64,000 nt of DNA from positions 156,468-220,467 of the forward strand of contig JAIVFJ010000108.1 in NCBI GenBank assembly GCA_025765615.1. The letters run 5' to 3'. The notes beneath the pieces are model-generated. The model searched no databases. It was not told the DNA's origin and saw only the letters and a program-made list of their open reading frames with translations. Both the position numbers and the translations under genes were made by a program. Positions 31,741-58,611 of this stretch are shown one piece after another (position 1 is the first letter of the stretch; every line of letters starts with the position of its first letter). Source of the stretch: Zopfochytrium polystomum. Its lineage: Eukaryota; Chytridiomycota; Chytridiomycetes; Chytridiales; Chytridiaceae.

Positions 31741-32043
31741 TGTCAGGAACAGGGCAGGACAGGACAAGGCAGACAAGGGACTGATGATTGTATTGGAAAC
31801 AATAATTCACTTGAGGGATGGGACAGGTCTCCCATCCCCCTTTTATACCTTTTGAGAGTCTTCCTTGTCAAGACTCAAAGAAAGTTCCAGAAAGTGAAAT
31901 TAGTATTACAATGATACCAATGATACCAATGACAACAACAAGACAAGTCAGGAAAGCAAAGAAGGTTCCATGAAGGTTCCTCAAGGTTCCATGAAGGAAT
32001 GCTCTAGAAGGTTCCAGAGGTTTCCAGAGGGTGATTCATAACA
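31741..32043 (-). mobile_element. solo LTR 1 of the Ty3-like element
   Basis: 303 bp with TG...CA ends; in plus orientation it begins TGTCAGGAACAGGG and ends GTGATTCATAACA. Flanks GCAGA and GCAGG differ at one base, fitting a slightly decayed 5-bp target duplication. Orientation is set by the copy attached to pol at 57 kb. Confidence 0.88.
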
Positions 32044-33850: not shown

Positions 33851-34159
33851 TGTTATGAATCACCCTCTGGAAACCTCTGGAACCTTCTAGAGCATTCCTT
33901 CATGGAACCTTGAGGAACCTTCATGGAGCCTTCTTTGCTTTCCTGACTTGTCTTGTTGTCATTGGTATCATTGGTATCATTGTATCACTAATTTCACTTT
34001 CTGGAACTTTCTTTGAGTCTTGACAAGGAAGACTCTCAAAAGGTATAAAAGGGGGATGGGGGACCTGTCCCATCCCTCAAGTAAATTATTGTTTCCCAAA
34101 CAATCATCACTCCTCTCAGTTCCATGTCTGCCTTGTCCTGTCCTGCCCTGTTCCTGACA
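33851..34159 (+). mobile_element. solo LTR 2 of the Ty3-like element
   Basis: 309 bp, begins TGTTATGAATCACCC and ends TTCCTGACA. Flanked on both sides by GTTAG, a perfect 5-bp target-site duplication. It carries a TATA-like GTATAAAAGGGGG and a partly decayed set of GAA/TTC repeats. Confidence 0.95.
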
Positions 34160-37175: not shown

Positions 37176-37811
37176 ATGACCTTTTCCAACTGCAACAACT
37201 GCAAAAATCCCAGAAACCACTTGGCCATCACCTACTCAAACCAGAACTCATCAAGTCATCTACGTCGAAACGCTCTTGCCCTGCATGTGGGGGTTTGGAT
37301 CACCAACGCAGGACTAGCAAAAAGTGTTGAGCAAACACAGGCTGCCCATCCTGTGGAAGTAACTCACATTACCGAAATCAATCTGTCAACTGCCCTTTTT
37401 TTGCTGGCTGCTCTGCATGTGGACAGTTGACCCATGGAAACCATGACTCCATTCGTTGTCCCTGCTTTCCTGGCTGCTCTGCGTGTGGGTTTGTCACCCA
37501 TGTAAACCAAGACTCGATTCACTGTCCCCAATTTCCTGGCTGTTCTGTGTGTGGGCAGTTGGACCATGCAAACCAAGATTCCCTTCTTTGTCCCCGCTTC
37601 ACTGGCTGCTTGGCGTGTGGGCAGTTGAACCATGCAAATCAAGGCTCACTGCTCTGTCCCCAATTTCCTGGCTGCTCTGAGTGTGGACTCACCAATCATA
37701 TTGACCAAACTTCCCCCCTCTGCCTTAACTTTGCTGGCTGCACCTCCTGTGGACGCCACAGTCACCATGGCCCAAACTCTCGTCAATGCCCGAACCGCCA
37801 GCCATTCCCAA

Positions 37812-38164
37812 TGTTATGAATCACCCTCTGGAAACCTCTGGAACCTTCTAGAACATTCCTTCATGGAACCTTCTGGAACCTTCTGGAACCTTCTAGAACA
37901 TTCCTTCATGGAACCTTGTGGAACCTTCTGGAACCTTCTTTGCTTTCCTGACTTGTCTTGTTGTCATTGGTATCATTGGTATCATTGTATTACTAATTGC
38001 TCTTTCTGGAACTTTCTTGGAGTCTTGACAAGGAAGACTCTCCAAAGGTATAAAAGGGGGATGGGGGACCTGTCCCATCCCTCAAGTGAATTATTGTTTC
38101 CCAAACAATCATCACTCCTCTCAGTTCCTTGTCTGCCTTGTCCTGTCCTGCCCTGTTCCTGACA
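37812..38164 (+). mobile_element. solo LTR 3, inserted in the zinc-knuckle ORF
   Basis: 353 bp, TGTTATG...CCTGACA, flanked by perfect CCCAA duplications (37807-37811 and 38165-38169). Longer than copies 1, 2 and 6 by about 45 bp because of an extra block of GAA/TTC repeats. TATAAAA at 38049-38055. Confidence 0.96.
37841..37938 (+). promoter_or_regulatory. heat-shock-element array in LTR U3
   Basis: GAA and TTC triplets alternate at exact 5-bp steps: four at 37841-37858, eight at 37866-37903 and more to about 37938. This is the nGAAnnTTCn pattern bound by Hsf1 trimers (three units are usually enough). It lies 110-210 bp upstream of the TATA-like box. The same array in reverse is at 39141-39180 (eight units) in LTR 4 and 57267-57284 (four units) in LTR 6. 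Confidence 0.75.
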
Positions 38165-38568
38165 CCCAAGATGCGGCCTTTGGAATCACCTACACGAGCG
38201 CTCAAGGCTTTGCCCTCGGCCTTGCCTCACTTGCGTGGGCAATGAGCCTGCTGACATTGCCGAATCTCACAAGTCTGTCAATTCACTTGACGGTCCCTAC
38301 TGCCTTCTGTGTGATGCCTGTGGTAGCATGGATCACCTTGACCACTGGAGCGAAGATTGTCCTGGCCACATCCCCTGCCCTGCCTGCAGCCAAAGAACCC
38401 ACCAAACGAGGCGGGACCGTCGATGCCCAAAGACAATTGCTCAGCTTGGGATAGCAGTGGCTCAGGAGTTTTGTGCTGATCAGGTGAGGTCCATTCTCTT
38501 TTGCCTTGCAGTATTGGTGATGCCCTCCAGATCACACACCCCCAATTTTTGCATTTTTGACCTTAAGA

Positions 38569-39850
38569 TCCGGGGCAAAGATGTTGACAAGGACTGTTGC
38601 TGCCACTTCCTTGGTCCGATGCAGACAGCCTGTCCACTCTGCAATGCGATCATGTTCTTTCAAGAGCAGACCAGCAGATCATCGAAAAAAAACCCAAAGT
38701 TTTCGCTCTGCTGCAGTTGTGGTCAAGTCTCCCTGCTGCCGTTGGCTGGCCCAACTCCCTTCATCAGTGAGCTTCTCCTGGGCAATGACTGCCTGTCCAA
38801 AGAGTTCCTGTCCAACGCATGCAACTACAACAGCCTCATGGCGTTTGCATCTGTTGGTGCAAACATCACCAGCCACAGCTGTCAGGAACAGGGCAGGACA
38901 GGACAAGGCAGACAAGGAACTGAGAGGAGTGATGATTGTATTGGAAACAATAATTCACTTGAGGGATGGGACAGGTCCCCCATCCCCCTTTTATACATTT
39001 TGAGAGTCTTCCTTGTCAAGACTCAAAGAAAGTTCCAGAAAGAGCAATTAGTAATGCAATGATACCAATGATACCAATGACAACAAGACAAGTCAGGAAA
39101 GCAAAGAAGGTTCCAGAAGGTTCCACAAGGTTCCATGAAGGAATGTTCTAGAAGGTTCCAGAAGGTTCCAGAAGGTTCCATGAAGGAATGTTCTAGAAGG
39201 TTCCAGAGGTTTCCAGAGGGTGATTCATAACAACAGCCAAGGTGTTCCAGTCTTCACCATCAGTGGACAGCTTCACCACAGCATCTCCAACTTTTGCAAC
39301 AACCCCCAGGATCACCCCAAGTTCTCTCAGATGTACATTTATGACTCTGCCCAGCAGTTCAACGCCAGAATGACGGTCGCTGGTGGAGGATTTGGCTCCT
39401 TACGCCCAATGCCGGAAATAGTGGAGATGCTGCAGGCTGAATTGCTGGAGGTACGTTTCTCCCTCTTCTGTTTGTGGTTCTTCAACGGTCTGATGTTGAC
39501 TCCCTTTTTTTCTTCTTTGCTCTTTCCCCGCCACAGTTCAACCCATATGCCAGGCTTTATCAGACGGCTGGAGAGTGTCTGCGTCGCAATCCATCAGAAA
39601 GCTTTTGCATCCAGTTTTGCTCACCATCTGCTCACACGATAACGTACAATGCTCCAACCGGCGATGTCATTGCTGCAATCCTGCCTTCAGACCCTGAAGT
39701 GGAGGAAGGTGCTTATCGAAGCATTGTTGTACGGGGGCGGGATGGCAAATTGGTTCACATTCCTCCAGAACACCCCTGCTACCTCCCACTGGCCTACCCT
39801 TTGATCTTTCCCTGCGGTGACCAAGGCTGGATGCTTGGCATTGCAAAAAT
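38569..39850 (+). pseudogene. Helitron-like N domain, split by LTR 4
   Basis: Two pieces. 38569-38879 has ACPLCNAIMFFQEQ, FSLCCSCGQVSLLPL and NYNSLMAFASVGANI; 39233-39850 has VFTISGQLHHSI, PKFSQMYIYD, then, after an intron (39451-39536), FNPYARLYQTAGE, YNAPTGDVIAAILPSD and YPLIFPCGDQGW. This order is the conserved preamble of Helitron Rep-helicase proteins. Frame is continuous if LTR 4 and one ACAGC are taken out. The next expected block, the HUH nuclease with its tyrosines, is missing. Confidence 0.85.
38880..39232 (-). mobile_element. solo LTR 4, inserted in the Helitron-like N domain
   Basis: 353 bp, in plus orientation TGTCAGG...CATAACA, with perfect flanking ACAGC (38875-38879 and 39233-39237). 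Same length class as LTR 3, including the extra GAA/TTC block (39141-39180). Confidence 0.96.
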
Positions 39851-39906
39851 TGCACCACAGACTGGACAGGATCAGGACAGGACAGGACAGGATCTGGACA
39901 GGACAG

Positions 39907-40195
39907 TGTCAGGAACAGGGCAGGACGGGACAAGGCAGACAAGGAACTGAGAGGAGTGATGATTGTATTGGAAACAATAATTCACTTGAGGGATGGGACA
40001 GGTCCCCCATCCCCCTTTTATACCTTTGGAGAGTCTTCCTTGTCAAGACTCAAAGAAAGTTCCAGAAAGAGCAATTAGTAATACAATGATACCAATGATA
40101 CCAATGACAACAAGACAAGTCAGGAAAGCAAAGAAGGTTCCAGAAGGTTCCACAAGGTTCCATGAAGGAATGTTCTAGAAGGTTCCAGAGGTTTT
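39907..40195 (-). mobile_element. truncated LTR 5 at the Rep deletion
   Basis: Begins TGTCAGGAACAGGG at 39907 and follows the family consensus until GGTTCCAGAGG at about 40194, where it stops about 25 bp short of the usual end and runs straight into Helitron coding sequence. No duplication is detectable. The 40 bp before it (39866-39906) is a short GGACAGGA-type tandem repeat. Confidence 0.88.
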
Positions 40196-40580
40196 GATGC
40201 CTGCTATGTGTCTGCTCAGGAGGCCTGCTGGAGGATCTTTCAGTTCCACATGCAAGGCCGGATACCAGCAGTCACAAGATTGGCTGTGCATCTCCCTGAC
40301 CAGCAGCCAGTGTACTTTGACGAGGATGCTGACCTTGAGGAAGTCGCTGCCCTTCAGAGGGGCTCCAAGCTTCTTACTTTCTTCAGACTGAACAAGCGTG
40401 ATGAAGATGCAAGGAGGCTGTCGTACTTTGAAGTTCCTGACCACTACACGTGGAACGAGAGGCAGGCAAGGTGGGCAAAGCGTCAGAGGCAACAATTGGT
40501 AGGATGCATGCGGCAAGCCCTTGGGACTCTGAGAGATATTTCCTCTGCGTTCTTCTGGACAACGTCCAAGGCCTACTTTT
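40196..40580 (+). pseudogene. Helitron Rep-helicase linker fragment
   Basis: Encodes YVSAQEACWRIFQFHMQGR, then VTRLAVHLPDQQPVYFDED and FEVPDHYTWNERQ, the block that follows the nuclease in Helitron proteins. The frame then shifts by one base near 40495 (to GRMHAASPWDSERYFL) and again near 40570. Confidence 0.8.
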
Positions 40581-42590
40581 GAGCACCTCCGGACTGTGGA
40601 AGGAACCACCGTTGGAACGTTTCAGGAGGCCTGTGTGCAACATGGGTTGACTGCTGATGATTGTGATGCAGTTCAGTGCTTGCAGCAGGGCGTGCGTGTG
40701 ATGACAAGCTCAAGAGAGTTTATCAGGCTGTTTGCACTGCTCCTTGCTTTCAATGCTCCAGCAGATCCAAGGGCTCTCTACAATGATTTCAGGAATGAGA
40801 TGGTCGCTGACCAGCTTCGCACAGCTCAGATGGAGCATGGGAATCTGGATCTTGCCCCTACAGACCGCATGTACTGCACTGCGTTGAGGCTTCTGGACGC
40901 GTCCCTGCAGAGTTTGTCAACCTTGCTGCGCAACTTCCCCACCCTGACGCAGCTGGAAGAGTTCCAGCCTGAGCCTGTGCTGGCGCTAGAAGGCCAGCTC
41001 CAGCTGATTTTTCAAAGGCTAAACTCGGAGTACAACCAGCAGCAGCTGGAGGCCGTTGTGGCAAATGCTGAAAGGAGCTTCAACCAGGAGCAGGCCTTTG
41101 CTTACAGGGCAGTAGTGGATGCTGTTGAGCAATGTGGACAACCTGGAGTGTTGCTTCCCCCAGAAGGTCAAATCTTTTATCTTCAGGGAGTGGGAGGATG
41201 TGGCAAGACCTATGTCTACAATGCCATCTTGGCAAAATTCTGCAGCAGTCAAGGCTGCTTTGGTCAGGGCAGGATTGCCCATGCTGTAGCTTCTTCAGGA
41301 ATAGCTGCGCTGCTGCTGGCTGCCGGGACAACTGCCCACTCTCGATTTGCCATCCCCATAGAGCTTGATGCTGACTCTCAGTCTGGCATCAAAATGTCCA
41401 CTGACCATGCACTGGAGCTGTACAAGGCTGATCTCATTGCATTGGATGAGATATCCATGCTCAACTCCTTGGCTCTGGATGTCATTGACAGAGTCCTGCA
41501 GGATGTTGTCAGGCCCTTGGATCCTCAGATGGCTGAAACCCCATTTGGAGGAAAAGTAGTGCTTCTTGGGGGCGACTTTCAGCAGACTGCACCTGTTGTG
41601 TCCAACGCCACAAAGACCATGATCCTGAAGGGTTCCTGCAAGTTCTCAAACCTTTGGAGGCATGTCAGGATGCTTGAGCTGAGAACCAACATGAGGCTTG
41701 CACAAGGAACAGCAAATCAGAATGCTGTTTACTTTGCTGGATGGTTGGTTCGCCTTGGCAGGGGCGGCCTGCAGCAGTTTGACACTCCAAATGGAGCATC
41801 CAATCATGTCATTGTCCCAGACTACATCAGCACCCTCACCTTTCCTGCAAATGATGGCAGTCCTCGTGTGAGGCATCTGTTTGAGGCAGTCTATGATGAT
41901 TTTGGTGCAGCAGTTCAGCAGCCAGGAAGCTTTGGCATCCTACCTGGCAGACAGGTGTATTTTGGCTGCAAGGAATGATGTGGTTCATCTGTTCAATGAG
42001 TATGCTGTGCAGCAGCTTCCAGGAGATACCCAGGAGCTACTTTCTGCTGACTCCCCAGTTGGAGACAACGAAGGCGACAGCCTTCTCGTTAGCCCCGAGT
42101 TCCTCAACACCCTTAGCCCTTCCCGCCTGCCTCCCCACAGGCTAATTGTCAAAGTGGGAATGCCTCTCATCCTCCTTCGCAACCTGACAGATGGACTCTG
42201 CAATGGGACACGCCTCATCCTATGTGAGGTCTGCCCCAATGTGCTGCTCTGTGAAGTTGTTGTGGGCAGCAGGAAAGGAGAGAAAGTCTCCTTCCCAGAA
42301 TCTCTCTGCAACCCAGTGATTCAGGATTTCCCTTTGAGTTATGAGAAAGCAATTTCCTGTTAGACCTGCGTTTGCAATGTCCATCAACAAGTCCCAAGGC
42401 CAGACTTTGAAAAAGGTTGGACTGGATATGTGGGAGGATGTGTTTGTGCATGGACAGTCCTATGTTGCTTTTTCAAGAGTGATATCCCCAGCAGATCTTA
42501 TCATAACTGCAAAACACAATCAAGAAAAAGGTGGACCAACTATTAGAAATGTGGTTTACAAGGAGTTGTGGATCATCTTAGGTTTTAATT
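40581..42590 (+). pseudogene. Helitron Pif1-like helicase, frameshifted
   Basis: The longest frame (40596-41978) carries TFEHLRT-VEG-like junction sequence, Walker A LQGVGGCGKTYVYNA (about 41186-41220), Walker B IALDEISML (about 41440), GGDFQQTAPVV and an arginine-containing LRTNMRL. At about 41955 the frame shifts into ILAARNDVVHLFNEYAVQQL (to 42363), then again near 42345 into FAMSINKSQGQTL and YVAFSRVISPADLI (to about 42590). At least three one-base shifts make it non-functional. SF1B 5'-3' helicase by family. Confidence 0.88.
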
Positions 42591-55291: not shown

Positions 55292-56483
55292 TTAATAAAT
55301 TTCTTGGTTGGGTTTGAATGGAGCCAAATTTTTTTTTTTTTTTTTTTTTTTTTTAGTGGACAGGGAAGGATAAAGCCAAAAAACTGAGTCAGGATCCAGT
55401 GTCCTTGTGGCTGTCAGCATGAAGTGGAAGAATACCCTCATTGCAGTCGATCGCTTCTCGTAGCAGAACACATCCACCATCAGTATCGGGAGCCATAACA
55501 GGCACAGTCCGAATCCCACGATCAGGTAGACTATGAAATCTGCTATCTTGAACCATATCAGTTTGAGAAGGAGCCATGTAGCCATTTCTCGACTCACACT
55601 CTCCATGATGCTCTGATTTATTGCCCAGCGTTTATCAGGTGCAATCAGCACATATCAGAACCACCTGCCCTTGAGTGTGAATTCCCCTGTCTCTACTGGA
55701 TGTGTTAGTTTGCCAGTCGCACCCATAGTTACTGCCCCGCTGTTTAAGTGATGTTTAAAAGGAGAGTTCGGTACAGCAATCAACCACCAAATGCTGACAT
55801 CCATGCATGGGTAGTTGCACTCACAATACTGTTGTGTACGAGACATTCCTACTGTATGTTCCCACTCTTGCCATCTGTGTTGTAGTGACTGTGGTTATGT
55901 TGGTGTTTGTGAGTATGGGAACGAGAGTCACTATCTGCTGTACTGATGCTGTGCTCAAAGTTATGTAATACAGCGTCGATGCATTGCCAGATAATACCGC
56001 AGTAGATGATACCACAGGAACAGTGACAGTCACATTGGCTGTAGTGAGTGTAGCAGTGGGAATCAGTGTCTCGATTGTCTGTGTTAGCACCTGAGTTACT
56101 GTGGCTATGCTAGTGGCTGGCACTATGGTCCACGTGGTATACACGGATGTAGCAGTGGTATTTTGGTAGCTTGAGGGAATATCAACAGGAAGTGCCGAGC
56201 TGCCGTACACTTTGTAGTAGCCTGGCAGTACCTGCAGCTTAGTGGCATTCACCAGCGCTATCGGTATGGCCTGCATGTATCCTGCAGTTGAGTTGGTTGA
56301 CTCCAGCATAGCAGCGCACTTGGACATGAATTCTGGTGCTGTTACCTGGCCTGGTGCGTAGTTCAGCTTACCGCAGTAATAGTCAGTTGCAGTTGAATTG
56401 CTGGACACATAGCGTGAGCCATTACACGCTGCTAGTAGGATATTGGCTGATGCTGATCCAGGTGATCTGATTAAACACGCCAT
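55292..56483 (-). pseudogene. broken membrane-glycoprotein-like gene
   Basis: Three minus-strand frames in sequence look like one decayed protein. 56483-55821 is a Thr/Ser/Val-rich ectodomain-like piece with Asn-x-Ser/Thr sites and a few cysteines (YYCGKLNYAPG). About 55846-55655 follows in another frame (YCECNYPCMDVSIWW, VETGEFTLKGRWF). 55651-55292 holds a long hydrophobic anchor (FIVYLIVGFGLCLLWLPILM) with basic residues after it. No known family is recognised; a single-pass surface protein is the natural reading. No splice sites join the pieces convincingly, so frameshift decay is likely. Confidence 0.4.
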
Positions 56484-56547
56484 GCCACTTGCCTCTGCTG
56501 ATGAAAGGCAGCAATAAAATGCGGCTGTATTACATGCTGGTGACCGG

Positions 56548-57005
56548 GTGGTAGCTATTCACTGGCACTCATTCGTTCCTGCTATAGACGGTATGCTTAC
56601 ACACACTAGACTGTTGTTGCTGTTTGGGTGCATGGTGCACTGCATCCAGCTGGTGCATGCGGCTGGTTGTGTTCCACTGTTCATGATGTTCTGTGTACGG
56701 TATCTATGCCAGTCTCCATCCGATGGACTGAAGCTAGACTTCAGCTCGTTTAAGACACCAGGAGCTAAGTCCAGTGATTGTCTTGCTGGTGCTACGTTTG
56801 GGCAATTCTATCAGTTCGCCCACTATTGCGCTGGTGGTACCTATGACTCAGGTGCAGGGACATATGCTCCTGCTATTGCACCAGCATCATACGTTCAGTC
56901 TACATTTGACTCATTCATCTCCTCTGTCCGTGCTCTGCCTAATGACAACAGCAGCCTTGCGCAGCCTGGATTGGTTGAGAATCTAGTGAAGGCCAATGCC
57001 CTCTT
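56548..57005 (+). pseudogene. gene fragment cut off by the retroelement
   Basis: Open frame with a hydrophobic leader (RLLLLFGCMVHCIQLVHAAG) then a Cys/Gly/Tyr/Ser-rich part (AHYCAGGTYDSGAGTYAP) ending exactly where LTR 6 starts. It faces away from the minus-strand glycoprotein-like pseudogene and has similar composition and AT-richer codon use. Function unknown. The 3' part may have been displaced by the insertion. Confidence 0.4.
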
Positions 57006-57313
57006 TGTCAGGAACAGGGCAGGACAGGACAAGGCAGACAAGGAACTGAGAGGAGTGATGATTGTATTGGAAACAATAATTCACTTGAGGGATGGGACAG
57101 GTCCCCCATCCCCCTTTTATACCTTTTGAGAGTGTTCCTTGTCAAGACTCCAAGAAAGTTCCAGAAAGAGCAATTAGTAATACAATGATACCAATGATAC
57201 CAATGACAACAAGACAAGTCAGGAAAGCAAAGAAGGTTCCAGAAGGTTCCACAAGGTTCCATGAAGGAATGTTCTAGAAGGTTCCAGAGGTTTCCAGAGG
57301 GTGATTCATAACA
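57006..57313 (-). mobile_element. 3' LTR (LTR 6) of the truncated Ty3-like element
   Basis: 308 bp, plus orientation TGTCAGG...CATAACA, directly abutting the end of the minus-strand pol frame. It therefore is the 3' LTR and fixes the sense strand for all other copies. It has four GAA/TTC pentamers at 57267-57284. Confidence 0.95.
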
Positions 57314-57330
57314 TCATCTCCCCCTTTTAG
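57314..57330 (-). promoter_or_regulatory. polypurine tract of the Ty3-like element
   Basis: On the minus strand AAAAGGGGGAGATGA lies immediately upstream of the LTR TG. It is the expected plus-strand priming site and overlaps the last codons of pol. Confidence 0.85.
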
Positions 57331-58310
57331 GCCTCTTCTGCAACTTGGTGGGGTACCTGGTCTTGAACTCGAGCAGAAGGTCTTGGCAGTGAGTGAGGTT
57401 TGACTCAGGCTCCCAGGTGTTGTCAGCATCTGAGTAACCTTTCCACTTAACAAGGAACTTGAGTGTTCTTCCAAACCACTTGGCATCCAAGATTTGTTCA
57501 ACCTCAAATTCCTCTTCACCTTCTACCTCAACTGGAGGAGGAGGAGGAACAACTCTGCCTGGAATGGAATTGGCCACAAACTTCTCTAAAAGGCTGACAT
57601 GGAAAACTGGGTGGATCTTCATGGATGCAGGGAGATCCAGCTTGAAGGTGACTGGATTGATTTGCTCCAAGATCTTGAAAGGTCCCAACTTGAGGTTGTC
57701 TAGCTTGGGACTTGGTCTTTTGGTCTGCAAGTTCTTCCTCAGAAGCCAAACTTGCTGACCCACAGCAAGGTCATGGTCCATTCTGTGAGTGTTGGCAAAT
57801 CTTGAGGCATCTTCTTGGGCTTGCTTCAGGGTGGAGTCCAGGAAGGAGTTGATGATCTTGAGCTTATGTAAGTGTGAAGCCGCAGCAGGAGCTTGGACAT
57901 TGGATAGGGTCTCTTGTCCCAGAAGATCTCCTCTTGGATTGAAGCCATAGGTTGCAAAGAAAGGAGATAGCTGGGTGCTTGAGTGGAGAGAATTGTTGAG
58001 AGCAAATTCTGCCAGTGGAAGGAGGGTGGGCCAATCATCCTGTTGATAGCTGACATAGCACCTCAAATACTGCTCCAGAGTCTGGTTTGTTCTTTCTGTT
58101 TGTCCATCAGTCTGAGGGTGATAAGCAGTTGACAGTTGAGACTTGATTCCAAGGGCTGCTGTGAGTGCTTTCCAAAATTGAGATCTGAACTGTGGTCCTC
58201 TGTCACTGACGATTGACTGAGGCAGCCCATGGAGCCTGAATATGTGCTGCAAAAACAGGTCTGCTGTTCCTTGTGCATCTATATTCTCAGTGCAGGGGAT
58301 GAAATGGGCC
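57314..58310 (-). pseudogene. Ty3-like pol fragment: integrase core C-terminus and chromodomain
   Basis: 5'-truncated retrotransposon. The frame enters at about 58310 (FIPCTENIDAQGTADLFLQH) and ends at 57314. Integrase signature IVSDRGPQFRSQFW and AYHPQTDGQTERTNQTLEQYL supply the second Asp and the Glu of DDE; the first Asp is lost with the 5' part. After the GPF/Y-like region (LKLGPFKILEQINPVTFKLDLP) comes a chromodomain (VEQILDAKWFGRTLKFLVKW, then YSDADNTWEPESNL), marking a chromovirus-type element that targets chromatin. Protease, reverse transcriptase and 5' LTR are absent. Confidence 0.92.
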
Positions 58311-58611
58311 TGTGAGGACGACAGGCTGTTGAGCCTGCGACCTCAAATAAAAAGAGTATACCCCGCTTTTTTAACTGATAACTTGTGAGGATTATCAATT
58401 TGACTTGACCAAACAACGTTTCACAAAGTGACGTAACACGGCTGGACCCCATTTCCTATTATTTTCATGGGTTATTATTGTCCCTGCAAGCCGAACCACT
58501 GAGATTTGGACTGTCTCTTAGCCGCGGCCATGTATATTATTCATGTTATTATTACGCACTAAGTTGCAGGCCGAATGGGTCAGGCCGCTCTGCACTACTG
58601 GCCAGAGGCCC

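Follow-up and report, generated by a model that had tools for sequence, protein, structure and literature searches.

Retrotransposons that are driven by heat under the control of HSF proteins are established in plants. As far as the available text of the relevant papers goes, the HRE of ONSEN binds HSFA2 and drives transcription on heat (PMC3907296, PMC5059998), and in the Brassicaceae COPIA elements are induced as much as a thousand-fold where 4P HREs are present (PMC5059998). COPIA78 of A. thaliana, with one 4P and one gap HRE, comprises 24 elements, eight of them full-length, and its 16 fragments or solo LTRs are described there as lacking a functional HRE (PMC3907296, PMC5059998). In the available text of a 2026 paper on Cryptococcus, activation of transposable elements via the host heat-shock machinery is presented as undescribed in fungi; one putative heat-shock element (HSE) was found in the LTR of TCN12 and two in that of TCN3, and both elements, whose temperature-dependent transposition was measured, were mobilized at 37 °C (PMC12810828). 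The LTRs of Tf2 of Schizosaccharomyces pombe contain sites for the host stress regulator Sre1, which triggers mobilization (PMC4981269). In Caenorhabditis, HSE-bearing Helitrons hold 61.4% of the HSEs of C. elegans in a clustered form, and binding of HSF-1 was shown (PMC6927752). Heat-associated changes in DNA profile were reported for Magnaporthe elements including MAGGY, in a paper whose main text, in its accessible form, does not contain the words HSE or heat shock element (PMC3978060). No other HSE-bearing LTR element from fungi or chytrids was found in the open-licence literature, a passing mention elsewhere being possible, and no LTR element with HSE arrays as long or as numerous as those reported here is described in the part of the literature compared.

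The element analysed here, a Ty3 chromovirus of a chytrid, resembles ONSEN, as the available text describes it, in being an LTR retrotransposon with a perfect multi-unit HSE in its LTR that would have arisen by duplication of a smaller motif, as is said of the HRE of ONSEN. The HSF-driven heat activation demonstrated for ONSEN is predicted for the chytrid element. Unlike the plant copia element, it is represented by about 1,870 LTRs, mostly with 8 or 16 distal units, 24 being the maximum, and its HSEs are found also in solo LTRs. In TCN12 and TCN3, too, the LTR of a fungal retrotransposon contains putative HSEs, but these elements combine one or two of them, in the available account, with a measured mobility, whereas the chytrid element has long arrays and is known from its sequence. 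The likeness to Tf2 lies in the presence of stress-regulator sites in the LTR of a fungal retrotransposon, the regulator reported there being the sterol/oxygen regulator Sre1 and not Hsf. The Caenorhabditis Helitrons, as reported, also represent a mobile element that supplies most HSEs of a genome, although in that case it is a nematode DNA transposon.

The window, by which we mean the whole 64-kb stretch of DNA that was analysed, contains six LTRs of one family (LTR1 to LTR6). An exact scan for GAA/TTC runs of at least three units found 16 of them, all inside these six LTRs: six runs of three units, eight of four and two of eight. The mean expectation from 100 dinucleotide-preserving shuffles of the window is 0.81 three-unit runs, 0.02 four-unit runs and no longer ones, and no run of four units appeared when LTR3 was shuffled 2,000 times. 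With three or more inverted nGAAn units in an exact 5-bp register, the LTR arrays fit the definition of a heat-shock element array. The observation of such arrays in a preliminary description of this DNA is confirmed, and it was understated.

LTR3 (37812..38164, + strand) is a 353-bp solo LTR with the ends TGTTAT...CTGACA and a 5-bp target duplication, CCCAA. Its distal block 1 of four units (37841..37858) and block 2 of eight units (37866..37903), both on the + strand, were found exactly where that description had placed them, together with a third block of four units (37921..37938, + strand) that is absent from it. Block 2 sits in the 45 bp by which the 353-bp form of the LTR exceeds the 308-bp form. 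The same layout is found on the opposite strand in LTR4 (38880..39232, − strand; 353 bp), a solo LTR with the target duplication ACAGC. Here the eight units had been correctly counted and their end had been set at 39180 instead of 39178 (39141-39178), and the two further four-unit blocks at 39106-39123 and 39186-39203 had been overlooked. LTR5 (39907..40194, − strand), which lacks its 5′ end, and LTR6 (57006..57313, − strand; 308 bp) both show a pattern of 4 + 4 + 3 units. The two four-unit blocks are located at 40133-40150 and 40168-40185 in LTR5, and at 57232-57249 and 57267-57284 in LTR6, for which a single one had been claimed. LTR1 (31741..32043, − strand; 303 bp), which diverges more than the other five (91% across the body), and LTR2 (33851..34159, + strand; 309 bp), a solo LTR with the target duplication GTTAG, have degenerate distal blocks, with two-unit remnants and no distal run of at least three units. 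The measured lengths (303, 309, 353, 353, truncated and 308 bp) agree with the 303–309 versus 353 bp given before. A proximal three-unit site, nearer to the TATA box, is present in all six LTRs and had been missed in every one (31880-31892, − strand, in LTR1; 33999-34011, + strand, in LTR2; 38004..38016, + strand, in LTR3; 39028-39040, 40055-40067 and 57154-57166, − strand, in LTR4, LTR5 and LTR6).

Regarding the surroundings of these LTRs, LTR3, LTR4 and LTR5 lie inside a Helitron-like region (37389-41978), which contains a run of 66-bp repeats at 37389-37718, recognized by eye as Cys/His-rich knuckles, and a PIF1-like helicase frame at 40533-41975 (Pfam PIF1, E 9e-56). LTR6 extends into a + strand open frame (56518-57129) and points toward a Thr/Ser-rich − strand frame about 450 bp downstream (55821-56558); no Pfam family was found in either frame. 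The window contains no tRNA gene and no Rfam family above threshold.

The arrays are located in the U3 region of the LTR, in keeping with their attribution to the LTR in the preliminary description, which had also correctly positioned the TATA-like box of LTR3 (TATAAAAG, 38049..38056, + strand; LTR position 238). The proximal HSE, whose sequence is unlike that of the distal blocks, ends 33 bp ahead of this box. At LTR position 273, 35 bp past the start of the TATA box, lies the sequence AAGTGAATTAT (38084..38094, + strand, in LTR3), and an 11-base complement of it is found within 30 bases after the 5′ LTR. This complementarity is present in all five elements examined (of six), and 11 bases were reached in none of 1,000 LTR shuffles. 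Tf1 and Tj1 have a PBS that is complementary to the 5′ end of their own RNA (PMC4600332), and the chytrid element resembles them, on the available description, in having a PBS complementary to the predicted 5′ end of its own RNA (PMC4600332), the arrangement of Tf1-type self-priming. The putative 11-base self-primer therefore indicates a likely RNA start at 38084. Counted from this predicted start, the proximal HSE spans roughly −80 to −68, and the distal arrays lie roughly between −243 and −146.

Judged by its predicted domains and gene order, the element is a 5.3-kb Ty3/gypsy chromovirus. Its gag contains a Retrotrans_gag domain, and in the pol of the copy L009 the Pfam domains follow one another in the order Asp_protease_2, RVT_1, RT_RNaseH, H2C2, rve, SH3_Tf2-1 and Chromo. 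This is the gene order of chromoviruses, with gag followed by protease, RT, RNase H and an integrase with a chromodomain. ONSEN has the copia gene order, with the integrase before RT; in the chytrid element RT and RNase H precede the integrase and a chromodomain is present, and this gene order excludes kinship with ONSEN and leaves a likeness in mechanism only. Hence the parallel with ONSEN drawn earlier stands for the mode of action and not for kinship, ONSEN being a copia element, while the assignment to a Ty3-like fungal chromovirus is borne out by the integrase chromodomain in pol. The LTRs have the usual chromovirus traits, namely TG...CA ends, a short target duplication (5 bp, in 20 of the 30 LTRs without internal flank) and a polypurine tract, which lies ahead of the 3′ LTR in all three elements inspected. 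In the window, LTR6 adjoins a polypurine tract and is therefore the 3′ LTR of an element. It is preceded on its own strand by the last part of a pol of the same family (57317..58342, − strand), with the end of the integrase core (just under the Pfam cut-off), SH3_Tf2-1 and the chromodomain.

Matches to LTR3 in the 80.16-Mb assembly, of which 40 of 774 candidates were scored, include pairs 4,952 bp apart. Of two copies whose frames were listed, one has gag and pol open, and the other has a shortened gag and a pol split over two frames. Among 12 full-length pairs, from loci picked for their resemblance to LTR3 or for a six-unit array, the two LTRs are identical in seven and differ by one base in two; the identity in seven pairs implies recent insertion. 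In the remaining three, the LTRs differ in both bases and length. Full-length copies devoid of the array had been named as evidence that would speak against a heat-driven family, and none is found among these 12 pairs, chosen as they were by LTR3 similarity or array. Relatives of the pol are abundant in the protein set (7,976), the top identity among the 120 listed being 69% over 75% of the query (P0002). In IMG/VR no relative of the pol was confirmed, and the six-unit pattern occurs in 15 stretches of that collection.

Several variants of the element were also observed. In contig C6 (360119-372551), four LTR/PBS and four polypurine-tract/LTR junctions are each repeated at an exact spacing of 3,171 bp, which suggests a tandem array of internally deleted copies. 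A recurrent LTR spacing of about 2.8 kb (C1:91353/94182, C3:614053/616836 and C5:536883/539716) suggests a non-autonomous deletion derivative, and its examples on C1 and C5 carry the HSE arrays of the chromovirus LTR. One copy (L013, C10:404458-409762) lies within a further family LTR, inserted into its HSE array with a 5-bp target duplication GTTCC. A preference for insertion into HSE arrays, suspected from this case, was dropped: an outer flank derived from the family was found in 11 of 89 LTRs, at mixed positions.

The number of family LTRs in the genome was estimated at about 1,870 from 940 + 932 = 1,872 matches to a 53-base pattern extending from the TATA box to the predicted start (at most three mismatches), a count which, like that of the arrays, allelic copies may inflate. 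For one insertion in the sample, the 80-bp flanks are identical on contigs C25 and C340, and another three outer-flank pairs show a similarity of 79-95%. The assembly also has several near-equal HSP70 copies (matches on C171, C285, C191 and C66) and may contain haplotypes that were not collapsed, in which case the number of LTRs would be overestimated. LTR/PBS junctions amount to 325 + 341 = 666, versus 297 + 320 = 617 polypurine-tract/LTR junctions that include the first HSE block. With longer arrays counted more than once, the perfect four-unit pattern has 7,339 matches in the genome versus 10 for the reversed control, and the perfect six-unit pattern 2,188 versus none for its reverse.

These matches were located in detail on the first contigs. 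Along contig C1 as far as base 971,043, each of the 19 clusters of four-unit matches listed has at least two blocks in the LTR layout; 13 of them coincide with the 13 exact-TATA sites of this contig, and in the other six two blocks are separated by 35 bp, like in the 308-bp LTR. A run of at least four units is present in all 13 exact-TATA LTRs of C1 and one of at least six units in eight. The contig also offers a less biased view of full-length copies, since four same-strand exact-TATA pairs are found there at full-length spacing (4,902 to 5,107 bp), and all four pairs, with all eight of their LTRs, carry runs of at least four units. On C1 to C5, all 25 six-unit places among the matches listed fall in family LTRs. 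Conversely, 21 of 51 exact-TATA LTRs (C5 to 540 kb) have a six-unit run within 400 bp, one of which, next to a truncated LTR on C2, is probably borrowed from a neighbour. A single mobile family appears to account for most strong Hsf sites in this genome. Insertion targeting is not claimed: when the 53 exact-TATA sites listed on C1 to C5 were reduced to 30 insertions, these formed no fewer islands than at random (P 0.67 at 20 kb and 0.15 at 50 kb).

About 1,870 LTRs, the excess of perfect four-unit matches over the control and the LTR layout of all the listed C1 clusters are also what would be expected if the arrays acted as a sink for Hsf, with promoter activity being secondary. Silent chromatin could hide most of these sites, however, and a sink would be of no direct benefit to the element that could account for a proximal HSE beside the TATA box. 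We regard this explanation as highly improbable.

The variation of the array was followed in LTRs from the fetched loci, which comprised 97 bodies, 89 of them complete and eight dropped. The complete LTRs measure 308 bp (n = 28), 353 bp (n = 39), 398 bp (n = 3) and other lengths, and their blocks are arranged as 4-8-4-3 (n = 43), 4-4-3 (n = 25), 4-8-8-4-3 (n = 3), 4-12-4-3 (n = 1) and rarer patterns. A run of at least four units is present in 87 of the 89 complete LTRs sampled, and the proximal site in 86. Restricting the sample to the 64 LTRs picked without the array pattern gives 62 and 63, respectively. Since similarity to LTR3 or LTR1, or a position in the window, decided the choice of these 64, the class frequencies are not unbiased, and contig C1 is the better check. 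The lengths of the arrays differ by 45-bp and 10-bp steps, as expected from the claim that units have been gained or lost between copies. Distal units in runs of at least four number 8, 16, 20 or 24, mostly 8 or 16, and forms with 16 are common among near-identical copies. Arrays of unequal length occur even within a single element, in its two LTRs (on C1, C2 and C5). In three of four length-discordant elements (L049, L039, L041 and C1:667378/672285), few as these cases are, the 5′ LTR is the longer one.

Stepwise changes of 45 and 10 bp, and arrays that differ between the LTRs of a single element, would also be produced by a minisatellite grown by slippage, which would read as an HSE by chance and have no regulatory role; the 5-bp register would then be kept automatically because duplication copies it. 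The conservation of the motif lends this explanation some room. Cores changed less than spacers across all 46 distinct LTR sequences (0.50% versus 1.66%, p = 0.003), a sample biased by having been picked in part for perfect arrays, and the difference was not significant in the 25 distinct sequences that were not picked by array pattern (0.74% versus 1.46%, p = 0.25). Selection on the motif is accordingly not claimed. A minisatellite would, however, have to account for the two separate perfect four-unit blocks already present in the 308-bp form, for an independent proximal HSE of different sequence at 33 bp before the TATA box, for the placement of the arrays in U3, upstream of that box, and for the use of the same kind of motif by two host HSP20 promoters (see below). 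We consider it unlikely, and favour a regulatory function of the arrays.

An HSP90 encoded in the assembly matches a Zopfochytrium polystomum record at 100% identity over 597 aa, against 88% for the next match, and this chytrid is therefore very probably the host. The assembly encodes candidates for the factor that would bind the arrays. HSF-type DNA-binding domains gave 14 exon matches in 11 places, and the domain is nearly complete at two loci (L029 and L030). Compared with solved structures, L029 matches HSF2 and HSF1 best (E 2.9e-25), followed by yeast HSF. It also matches 5d5w, a “putative transcription factor” (E 2.7e-21) that we take to be Skn7, and because of this match L029 is classified as HSF-type without a settled class. 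The segment that follows its DNA-binding domain, where an HSF1-type factor has a trimerizing heptad region, is heptad-like, as judged by eye. Three nearly equal HSF domain fragments (C7:485101, C459:28671 and C655:3016), each with an internal TAG, give the impression of an HSF-family gene that has decayed in several copies.

Host promoters were searched for the same motif. Two of the three small-HSP (HSP20) promoters examined (L087 and L088) have an HSE like that of the LTR, GAATTGTCCAGAA(G/A)CTTC, with 11 of 12 matches to a four-unit HSE, at 66 and 64 bp before the TATA box; this score was equalled by none of 300 base shuffles. When scored for three-unit sites, the two regions stand out less (21 and 26 of 300 shuffles). 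No HSE standing out from shuffles was found in the third HSP20 promoter (L086). The same holds for the two HSP90 upstream regions, where none clearly stands out and 12 of 200 shuffles did as well as the top-scoring site, and for two mitochondrial-type HSP70 genes, within 172 and 145 bp upstream. Host use of the motif is therefore partly verified, and the host sites are imperfect.

Alternatively, a different HSF-family protein (Skn7-, Sfl1- or Mga1-like) could bind the arrays, which would place the element under oxidative, developmental or repressive control and not under that of heat. Non-heat HSF-family proteins of yeast recognize GAA/TTC motifs, the genome has HSF-type loci beyond L029 and L030, and L029 itself matches 5d5w, although less well than HSF1 and HSF2. 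On the other hand, trimeric HSF1 prefers long alternating arrays with a 5-bp step, a heptad-like segment can be read by eye after the L029 domain, and the motif is shared with the HSP20 promoters. Control by such a relative seems improbable to us, and heat-responsive HSF is the preferred candidate.

Taken together, the layout of the LTR makes it likely that in this chytrid chromovirus the U3 acts as a heat-shock promoter, driven by Hsf in the manner of ONSEN. Upon heat or another protein-damaging stress, trimers of the host HSF would bind the LTR arrays cooperatively and drive transcription of the full-length element RNA, which would prime itself, be copied and then be inserted by the chromodomain integrase. 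Tandem duplication of the 45-bp piece and in 10-bp steps, via slippage during reverse transcription or recombination, would lengthen the array, and each insertion, as well as each solo LTR left behind, would be a potential heat-responsive promoter. Besides the partly verified host use of the motif, the non-significant core conservation and the unsettled class of L029, other points also count against the heat-promoter reading: a chromodomain integrase may direct copies into silent chromatin, and LTR1 and LTR2 are devoid of distal runs.

A more far-reaching possibility, which we put forward tentatively and hold to be rather doubtful, is that this one family owns practically all strong Hsf sites of the genome, so that each heat shock would launch the element and at the same time confront Hsf with thousands of element sites. 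The element would then be a major evolving part of the heat-shock circuit, in which longer arrays may be selected by winning more Hsf.

If the heat-promoter reading is true, heat would set off this chytrid family, a link that has been proposed but not demonstrated in fungi. The natural series of arrays, with 8, 16, 20 and 24 units, could serve to relate the dose of HSEs to transcription and copy number.
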